A stretch of DNA of 64,000 bases. Origin: Pseudoxanthomonas spadix. Its GTDB lineage: Bacteria; Pseudomonadota; Gammaproteobacteria; Xanthomonadales; Xanthomonadaceae. The position numbers and the translations under genes are program-made. Positions 30,384-32,029 of this stretch are shown here, piece after piece (within the stretch, counting starts at the first letter, position 1; the number at the start of each line of letters is the position of its first letter). Under the pieces are notes generated by a model. It was not told where the DNA came from. It searched no databases and was given only the letters and a program-made list of their open reading frames with translations. The stretch is from the NCBI RefSeq assembly GCF_003703395.1, contig NZ_RDQN01000003.1, positions 372,001 through 436,000 on the forward strand, given 5' to 3'.

Positions 30384-30438
30384 GCCGTTGCCGTTGCCGT
30401 TGTTGCTGTTGCCCCCTCTCCCCCGCTCGCGGGGCGAG
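30384..30438. repeat. Left boundary: GTTGCn microsatellite plus palindromic repeat
   Basis: GTTGCC/GTTGTT/GCTGTTGCC-type hexamers (30384-30413) run straight into a CCCCCTCTCCCCCGCTCGCGGGG palindrome-family repeat. The same two modules occur in mirror order on the far side of the DUF559 coding segment (30880-31018). Confidence 0.7.
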
Positions 30439-30544
30439 AAGGCACGGCTTGCGCGCCACTGGCGCGCGTGCCTTGGAGCGCCCGCGCCGCTGGCGCGGGC
30501 CGGGGTGCGAAGCAGAGGGATGGGGTGAGGGGGGAGCTTTCCGC
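30439..30544. repeat. GCGCCACTGGCGC-type palindromes before the DUF559 coding segment
   Basis: GCGCGCCACTGGCGCGC near 30452 and a related CCGCGCCGCTGGCGCGG follow the left palindrome. They match modules at 12226-12407. The spacer ends with a GGGGGGAG ribosome binding site for ATG 30545. Confidence 0.6.
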
Positions 30545-32029
30545 ATGGACCACAGCAAACGCCTGCGCCAAGAACAAACCGATGCCGAGCACCGGCTCTG
30601 GCAACGCCTGGGCAATCATCAGCTCGGGGCGAAGTTTCGGCGCCAGCACCGCATCGGTGGCTATATCGTGGATTTCGTCTGCCTTGAGGCTGGGGTGGTG
30701 GTGGAGCTGGATGGCGGGCAGCATCTGGAGCAGGCAGAGCGTGACGCCGAGCGGACCGCTTTTTTGGAGTCGCTCGGACTGGCCGTGCTGCGCTTCTGGA
30801 ACGACGATGCGTTGTTGCGGACTGATGCGGTGGTTGAGGCGATTTGGCATGCGTTGCAGCCTGCAGAGCGGCCCCCTCACCCCAACCCTCTCCCCCGCTC
30901 GCGGGGGAGAGGGGGCAAGAGCAAAAGCAACAGCCACGGCGGAGGCGAAAGCAACAGCAACAACAACAGCAACGACAACAACAGCAACGACAACGACAAC
31001 GACAACGACAACGACAGTGAACCGGCTACGCGGGTTGCCGGCGCAAACGCGCAACCGACAGCCGACGCCTGGCGTCCCGGCGCGACGCTGGAAGTCATCA
31101 GGTTGCGTGCGCAGCTCAACGCCCACGTGCGCGCCTTCTTCGCCCAGCGTCAGGTGCTGGAAGTGGAGACGCCGGTGCTCTCGCAGGCCGGCAACACCGA
31201 GCCGAACATCGACAGCTTCACCACCGCGTTCAGCGGCCATGTCAGTGCCGGCGCGCGTACCCGCTGGCTGCGCACCTCGCCGGAGTATCCGCTCAAGCGT
31301 CTGCTGGCCGCCGGTGTCGGCGATTGCTACGAACTGGGCCGGGTGTTCCGCAATGGCGAAGCCGGCGGTCGCCACAATCCCGAGTTCACCATGCTGGAGT
31401 GGTACCGCGTCGGCTGGGACCACGTGCGCCTGGCCGAGGAAACCGTGGCCCTGGTGCAGGGCGCGCTGGCCCTGGTCGGGCGCAGCGCCACGGTCCGGTC
31501 GCTGAGCTACCGCGCCCTGTTCCAGCGCGCGCTGCAGATCGACCCGTTCAGCGCACCGCTGGAACAGCTGCAGGCCGCGCTGGGCCCAGTGCGGGTCGAC
31601 CCGCAGGGGCTCGAGCGCGACGACTGGCTGGACCTGCTGGTCAGCCATCGCCTGCAGCCCGATTTTGCTGGCGATGCGATCACCATCGTCCATGACTGGC
31701 CGGCCAGCCAGGCTGCCCTGGCGCGCATCCGCCCGGGCGACCCACCGGTGGCCGAGCGCTTCGAGCTGTACCTGGGTGCGGTCGAGCTGGCCAACGGCTA
31801 CCACGAGCTGCGCGATGCGGATGAACAGCGTGCCCGGTTCAGCCACGACAACCAGCGCCGGGCTGCGCGCGGGCTTGTTCAGCCACCACCGGATTGGCAC
31901 TTGCTCGACGCCCTGCCACTCATGCCACACTGCGCCGGCGTGGCGGTCGGGATGGATCGGCTGCTGATGGCGATGCTGGGGACCTCCCGGATCGCCGAGG
32001 TGCTGGCCTTCGATTTCGCAAGGGCCTGA
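30545..32029 (+). CDS. epmA: Fusion of DUF559 nuclease-like domain to EF-P lysine ligase EpmA
   Basis: One 494-codon frame joins two unrelated proteins. Residues 1-~112 are a DUF559 domain of the Vsr/PD-(D/E)XK-like nuclease fold: RRQHRIGGYIVDFVCLEAGV, then VVELDGGQH and LGLAVLRFWNDDALL. Residues ~113-172 are a linker translated from a palindromic repeat (PHPNPLPRSRGRGGKSKSN) and an AACGAC-type microsatellite (Asn/Asp/Ser runs). Residues 173-494 are a full EpmA (GenX/PoxA), which adds lysine to elongation factor P: SPEYPLKRLLAAGVGDCYEL, motif 2 RHNPEFTMLEWYR and motif 3 GVAVGMDRLLMAML. No ATG, GTG or TTG lies in the linker in frame, so EpmA has no obvious start of its own; GTG/TTG codons near 30829-30855 at the end of the DUF559 part are possible. 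Confidence 0.85.
   Translation: MDHSKRLRQEQTDAEHRLWQRLGNHQLGAKFRRQHRIGGYIVDFVCLEAGVVVELDGGQHLEQAERDAERTAFLESLGLAVLRFWNDDALLRTDAVVEAIWHALQPAERPPHPNPLPRSRGRGGKSKSNSHGGGESNSNNNSNDNNSNDNDNDNDNDSEPATRVAGANAQPTADAWRPGATLEVIRLRAQLNAHVRAFFAQRQVLEVETPVLSQAGNTEPNIDSFTTAFSGHVSAGARTRWLRTSPEYPLKRLLAAGVGDCYELGRVFRNGEAGGRHNPEFTMLEWYRVGWDHVRLAEETVALVQGALALVGRSATVRSLSYRALFQRALQIDPFSAPLEQLQAALGPVRVDPQGLERDDWLDLLVSHRLQPDFAGDAITIVHDWPASQAALARIRPGDPPVAERFELYLGAVELANGYHELRDADEQRARFSHDNQRRAARGLVQPPPDWHLLDALPLMPHCAGVAVGMDRLLMAMLGTSRIAEVLAFDFARA
30880..31018. repeat. Right boundary: palindromic repeat plus GCAACn/AACGAC microsatellite, inside the fused frame
   Basis: A 13-bp-arm palindrome (30886-30913, centre TC) is followed by about 100 bases of GCAACA/AACAGC/AACGAC units to 31018. 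It is the mirror image of the module at 30384-30438. It is translated as the linker between the DUF559 and EpmA parts. Confidence 0.75.

Follow-up and report, generated by a model that had tools for sequence, protein, structure and literature searches.

The closest described counterpart of the system treated here is that of REP repeats and RAYT genes. A RAYT gene is present in low copy between inverted palindromes, with REPs dispersed in the genome and with covariation of repeat and enzyme. DUF559 genes and their repeats resemble this arrangement in the low copy number of the enzyme gene, the inverted palindromic flanks, the dispersal of the repeats singly or in short pairs, and the covariation. 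However, the RAYT enzyme is an HUH Y1 protein (PF01797), whereas DUF559 is PD-(D/E)XK/Vsr-like without the HUH Y1 domain, and the REP is described as carrying a GTAG or CGTC tag (PMC3733652), in place of which the repeat considered here has a third-strand tail.

This second repeat has its own literature. In the account of Holder et al. (2015; PMC4666352), BoxC, PIT or TM is a hairpin with a 3-nt loop and a mirror tail, like the repeat of our locus, and is found in >260 genomes, with 23 copies in E. coli K-12. Five inverted TM pairs were described, deletion by slippage was seen for such pairs, and instability was reported with its mechanism left unclear; the E. coli motif formed a triplex in vitro, and a stable triplex was not seen in vivo. 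As far as the main text of that paper goes, TM was linked neither to mobile elements nor to gene classes, and the strings 'duf' and 'endonuclease' do not appear in it.

In Pfam, DUF559 is still a domain of unknown function. TnsA of Tn7 acts together with TnsB and others, and this reliance on partner proteins may distinguish it from DUF559. Both are of the PD-(D/E)XK nuclease type, TnsA being used in transposition, and the DUF559 protein YcjD was earlier assigned to that superfamily (PMC1189080). In Caulobacter cells without one methyltransferase, the SOS response requires the DUF559 protein VsrA, interpreted by its authors as a mismatch repair enzyme (PMC12907096). Members of the DUF559 family are thus able to act on DNA in living cells.

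A search of titles and starts of abstracts, with preprints and most subscription journals outside its scope, returned none joining DUF559 with BoxC or TM. The repeat is already known; the link to an enzyme and the covariation of its arm and tail are new from the present analysis. An earlier note on the stretch of Pseudoxanthomonas spadix DNA studied here (the window, 64,000 nucleotides) had suggested a parallel to REP-associated transposases with another enzyme class, and dispersed repeats, inverted flanks and repeat-enzyme covariation were all found in the DUF559 system. The reading that we favour, with a probability of about 0.6, is that TM repeats have their cognate enzyme in DUF559, which would work in a RAYT-REP-like way as an unrelated putative nuclease. 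It would provide a candidate enzyme for a family of repeats that was already known in the 1990s, present in >260 genomes and linked to instability (PMC4666352), and a candidate role for DUF559.

The ligA-epmA interval of the window

The order along the window is ligA, a small cassette and epmA. The ligA frame (27881-30367, + strand, 828 aa) ends in a stop that overlaps the former epmA start, ATGAGC (30364-30369, + strand), now severed from its gene; in relatives, GCATGAGCCAGGCATGGCGTCC... continues directly into EpmA. The ligA-epmA interval of close relatives had been proposed as a check, and two genomes of the same genus (G216 and G221) turned out to be free of the cassette with the old start intact, epmA starting inside the ligA stop by an ATGA overlap and running as GCATGAGC... 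straight into EpmA. In the window, ATGAGC is kept at 30364 and followed by the cassette, and similarity to the relatives restarts at the Trp codon at 31070, the beginning of the EpmA body (31070-32029, + strand). The empty sites of the relatives thus uphold the proposed insertion into the start of epmA.

The DUF559 ORF (30545-30856) sits between inverted palindromic repeats, as had been claimed. The right repeat (30872-30915) is perfect, its tail (30874-30882) being followed by the hairpin (30886-30913). The left copy is degenerate and split into a hairpin (30412-30442), of which G217 and L119 have a clean copy in the same position, and a G-rich third-strand tail (30515-30534, + strand) immediately 5' of the DUF559 start; an additional hairpin-rich stretch of 72 bp (30443-30514), absent from G217, lies between the two. 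The 9-3-9 arm/tail motif (at most three mismatches) has two matches in the 64-kb window, both beside the DUF559 gene, against 0.15 expected; two matches were reached in 1 of 100 shuffles. When the whole genome was searched for the palindrome with up to two mismatches, 37 matches were obtained, and none with the reversed-pattern control. A scan of 30300-31200 against Rfam gave no match above the gathering score, and PADLOC returned a weak DpdF match and nothing else.

Microsatellites are present on both sides of DUF559, as first described: a GTTGCn run on the left (30384-30411) and, on the right, an in-frame repeat run coding for Asn/Asp/Ser (30917-31016, + strand) inside the fused ORF. The proposal that they form part of the cassette had to be abandoned, as the neighbourhood of DUF559 shows no excess of runs of this kind (12 in 71.8 kb, against 17 in 96.0 kb farther away; 7 of 90 loci), which rules them out as cassette ends. 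The GTTGC/GCAAC microsatellites are local features outside the DUF559-TM system.

Two solo, tail-less hairpins of the window's TM type, at 36776-36803 and 47521-47548, lie close to other palindromic stretches and are possibly deletion scars. The window also holds a 19-bp repeat (48785-48821) and an array of 14 copies of the 7-bp unit CCGAGTC (48937-49037).

The DUF559 frame reads through to EpmA as one ORF (30545-32029, + strand; 494 aa, 54.8 kDa), in agreement with the proposed capture of the EpmA frame. It is composed, by Pfam, of DUF559 (2.5e-37) and a class II tRNA-synthetase domain, and it scores 363 bits with the NCBIfam EpmA model TIGR00462 (cut-off 286.9). The reported lack of a start in the linker was also confirmed, no in-frame ATG, GTG or TTG occurring between TTG 30854, at the end of DUF559, and TTG 31103, within EpmA. 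As a start for the whole frame, ATG 30545 is a better choice than the listed TTG 30449, and the G-rich repeat tail may act as a Shine-Dalgarno-like stretch for it. A search of the window's genome found no second full EpmA; its other EpmA-like matches are two weak pieces (E 4e-14 and 1e-11) of one 873-codon frame, which we take to be LysS, and the same pieces are present in relatives. The cassette would have entered epmA right behind the start codon and brought a new start, so that EpmA would now be produced either fused to DUF559 or from a start of a non-standard kind.

Thirty epmA loci were read from 38 genomes searched, and in three of them (the window, G217 and G144) a DUF559 motif was found in the 1500 bp preceding epmA. 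In each of the three, the frame of EpmA extends upstream into DUF559 without a stop, with a GTG in the linker of G217, several possible starts in that of G144 and none in that of the window. As the three DUF559s group together on the tree (100/98, with one outsider within), they probably go back to a single old insertion with later losses, or to transfer into the same place. In other relatives, palindromes of a different family (GTAGGAGC / GCTCCTAC-like) occupy the ligA-epmA interval (L123-L128, L138, L141) as well as the methyltransferase linker of L161 (G153), that is, both permissive sites.

Other DUF559 sites, and the question of target or end

The genome of the window has four DUF559 genes, each between inverted flanks that match one another (with scores from 29.5 to 92.5, the score of the window's locus including its microsatellite) that fall into three sequence types. 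No near-identical recent copies were found among the four, the paralogs being ~50% identical. One of these genes lies in frame within a DNA methyltransferase. The corresponding linker was compared in 21 fetched loci of this methyltransferase subfamily (L145-L165), of which three hold DUF559 and 16 are clean; of the other two, one carries an array of a different palindrome and one a short unusual stretch. In G004, the methyltransferase frame terminates within the DUF559 stretch. In L162 (G049) and L145 (G000), from two genera and with different TM types, DUF559 is in frame inside the methyltransferase, and the pair is perhaps a working methyltransferase-nuclease fusion. At the epmA and methyltransferase sites, the junctions have diverged too far to define a target-site duplication.

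A third site, between hppD and hgmA, holds DUF559 with a repeat in G000, G223, G224 and G187, and a bare hairpin alone in G216 and G217. Such a pattern, together with a homing endonuclease being the closest fold after 3HRL, would suit TMs as targets and not ends, with a homing-endonuclease-like DUF559 gene invading pre-existing hairpins. However, no hairpin is present at the empty ligA-epmA and methyltransferase sites, and the only two TM matches of G324, a genome with two DUF559 genes, lie on either side of one of them. Moreover, the bare hairpin between hppD and hgmA is maybe a deletion scar, because the more distant G187 also has DUF559 there. In a difference from the homing endonuclease I-Bth0305I, no intron or intein was seen with DUF559, and full repeats, not the halves of a site, bracket the gene. 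We consider it improbable that TMs are targets, and retain the reading in which they would be the ends recognised by DUF559. The DUF559 copies that share one site form one lineage on the tree, and inheritance thus seems to account for most of the spread of the gene itself.

The enzyme, the repeat and their pairing

The DUF559 domain of the window (30548-30856, + strand) was modelled with a pLDDT of 86. The closest fold was 3HRL (E 6e-7), followed by the homing endonuclease I-Bth0305I (PDB 3R3P), and Vsr was matched weakly; I-Bth0305I and Vsr share both the fold and the acidic/His pattern with DUF559. Residues E15, D43, E54, D56, H60 and D67, invariant in an alignment of 40 sequences and intact in the window, presumably form the active site of the Vsr-like group. 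By its modelled fold and these residues, DUF559 is a putative nuclease of the Vsr-like PD-(D/E)XK type.

Judged by sequence, the window's repeats are the known orphan BoxC or intrastrand-triplex motif (TM), built as a hairpin with a purine 3' arm, a short loop and a tail that mirrors the purine arm, as found at 30872-30915. In an intrastrand triplex of the purine motif, the third strand needs to mirror the purine arm, as this tail does. The mirror match of arm and tail was scored, with T over A allowed, for 207 distinct units that came from 142 of 194 loci; it averaged 8.23 of 9, against 7.39 after permutation (maximum 7.55 in 500 permutations), and was perfect in 136. Among the 121 units with uncommon arms, the own tail was a better fit than common-type tails in 94 and a poorer one in 27 (7.99 against 7.16, p 2e-8); an earlier, cruder test went in the same direction. 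Examples are arm GGGAGAAGG with tail GGATGAGGG and arm GGGGGAAGG with tail GGATGGGGG. As far as these alignments can tell, this covariation is what the third strand of a purine-motif triplex requires, by the rule described by Holder et al. (PMC4666352), and it would be evolutionary evidence that the intrastrand DNA triplex matters in cells.

Between genera, the similarity of the repeats, measured by alignment in place of regex typing, which left many loci unclassified, followed the identity of the DUF559 proteins (Mantel r 0.496, 0/2000), with a median repeat similarity of 12 at 45-55% identity, 20 at 55-65% and 33 at 65-75%; only three pairs lie above 75%. Paralogs of the same genome, of which 26 of 31 pairs are 45-55% identical, carry unlike repeats. 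Therefore, gene and ends are at least one inherited unit, and descent of the gene together with its flanks might alone explain the correlation across genera.

If DUF559 is the cognate enzyme, the feature would be a cassette in which a small PD-(D/E)XK gene, Vsr- or homing-endonuclease-like, lies between inverted TM (BoxC-type) repeats. Each enzyme would recognise its own TM repeat, probably on a single strand folded as hairpin or triplex, for instance the lagging strand. A nick at the TM could then give rise to single TMs, to short inverted TM pairs and sometimes to a copy of the gene elsewhere, and slippage between the arms could remove sequence and leave the bare hairpins and lost tails, which fit slippage deletion. 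A wider proposal, for which we would claim somewhat less than an even chance, is that DUF559 proteins act as the enzymes of a bacteria-wide, so far unrecognised class of mobile elements with single-stranded DNA triplex ends, BoxC and TMs being their non-autonomous offspring and selection keeping the third strand matched.

Flanks and repeat load across genomes

Inverted flanks were scored by aligning the 350 bp to the left of DUF559 with the reverse complement of the 350 bp to the right, with a threshold of 16 that was picked after initial flank scores had been inspected. The earlier note had proposed a search of DUF559 genes in Xanthomonadaceae for flanking palindromes of the CCCTCTCCC type, and the association was upheld outside the window's genome. 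Matching inverted flanks were found at 90 of the 114 loci that represent the window's family among the matches listed (the four own loci, 30 and 80 more, the weakest matches being outside the sample) and at 63 of 76 diverse named loci, four of 80 having been excluded for short flanks. Judged by record title, the diverse set covers, among others, Proteobacteria, Chloroflexi, Rokubacteria, Spirochaetes, Rickettsiales and Gastranaerophilales. The association between DUF559 and TM repeats is near certain. In Legionella anisa (L057), DUF559 lies between long and very different inverted repeats, with a score of 125.

The same score was reached by 2 of 726 same-locus control windows, taken in the diverse set only. 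Common G-rich palindromes near DUF559 by accident of base composition, an explanation that the GC-rich family of the window might invite, are refuted by this control; flanks were also found in Acinetobacter (L022, L043) and Gastranaerophilales (L081), which we take to be AT-rich hosts. The probability that chance accounts for the flanks is negligible. Flanks swapped between loci still reached 16 in 294 of 1125 family pairs and in 219 of 746 diverse pairs. This reflects the likeness of repeats from different loci, and same-locus windows, not swapped flanks, are the fair control. The flanks matched better in direct than in inverted orientation at 33 of 190 loci, and a direct score of at least 16 was found at 109 of the 190, at 107 of them beside an inverted match, as the arms of a hairpin match both ways.

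Scores remained below 16 at 24 of the 114 family loci (among the matches listed) and at 13 of the 76 diverse loci. The flankless family loci cluster on the tree (13 changes against a shuffled mean of 22, the least of 200 being 19; 114 rows). Some DUF559 lineages have therefore lost the repeats or never had them.

The number of dispersed repeats also followed the gene. At least three copies of one repeat type were present in 81 of 108 family genomes with DUF559, six having only weak DUF559 matches counted as positive, and in 7 of 89 without (197 genomes, p 4e-23); permutation within genera gave 0/5000. Of the 19 genera with both kinds of genome, 16 showed the expected direction, one the opposite and two a tie, and in one genus eight DUF559-free genomes have zero repeats and the single DUF559 genome has 147. 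The reversed-pattern control was uninformative for these counts because the motif is nearly mirror-symmetric. With a looser motif across the class, at least three TMs were found in 30 of 47 genomes with DUF559 and 14 of 152 without (28 of 45 and 14 of 150 excluding the window's family); 24 genomes with weak or partial DUF559 matches alone, three of which have at least three TMs, were set aside. TMs do occur without DUF559, namely in the seven family genomes and the 14 class-wide genomes just counted. In class-wide genomes such as G301, G314 and G369, weak DUF559-like matches lie within open frames 1500-2000 codons long, which may be fusions to other enzymes.

Another enzyme, a RAYT or an IS200-like protein, might move the repeats and carry DUF559 as passenger cargo, and Y1_Tnp genes are indeed common (139 of 197 family genomes). 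Nevertheless, at least three TMs were found in 14 of 23 genomes having DUF559 without Y1_Tnp, compared with 5 of 54 having Y1_Tnp without DUF559. As TM load tracks DUF559 and not Y1_Tnp, the Y1 transposase was rejected as mover of the repeats, and a passenger role for DUF559 is highly improbable. Contig 1 of G195 contains ~20 Y1 transposase copies with near-equal scores, each listed with one in-frame TAG.

The spacing of close TM pairs is 70-106 bp in the window's genome. Among the matches listed, tail-in pairs 40-51 bp apart occur in G312, G407, G305, G295 and G276, plus some tail-out pairs, and close pairs in six genomes other than G095 comprise 11 tail-in, five tail-out and one tandem. In G095, most close pairs are tandem (21 of 23, among 100 listed of 144 matches), which speaks against a simple pair-only model.

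The ycjD gene and BoxC in E. coli

In E. coli, one TM repeat stands at the stop of the DUF559 gene ycjD and another lies farther along. The copy at the stop is degenerate in K-12, whereas two other records have it clean. The pairing of DUF559 with repeats spans many bacteria, and ycjD suggests a partner for the long-orphan repeats; it also makes much of the proposed model approachable in E. coli K-12. BoxC is present in 5367 of 5426 E. coli genomes and ycjD in 3365, so at least 2002 genomes have BoxC without ycjD. Among the listed E. coli records with and without ycjD (25 and 15), the median number of extra BoxC places was 3 and 1, respectively (p 0.003), a comparison confounded by phylogroup.

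The persistence of BoxC without ycjD would be expected if DUF559 were a repair or structure-resolving nuclease that handles fork stalling induced by TMs, the repeats being a regulatory or maintenance site not spread by the enzyme. The Vsr fold of DUF559, the reading of VsrA as a mismatch repair protein (PMC12907096) and the instability tied to TMs by Holder et al. (PMC4666352) point the same way. Such a role, however, leaves unexplained why repeats face the gene on both sides, why there are in-frame insertions in epmA and the methyltransferase at sites that are empty in relatives, and why TMs are rare in DUF559-free genomes. We consider a purely repair-related function unlikely, though less so than the other alternatives, and prefer DUF559 as the cognate enzyme of the repeats.

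In a record of Neisseria gonorrhoeae, the species of 3HRL, repeats are found on both sides of the DUF559 region in direct orientation. Three E. coli strains without ycjD have an efflux operon region in its place, and exchange of the ycjD region with eefRABCD has been described (PMC12817139). Between fabI and sapF (L235, L319, L320, L323), ycjD and BoxC stand where other strains have the efflux operon, and the cassette may mark a deletion of that operon.
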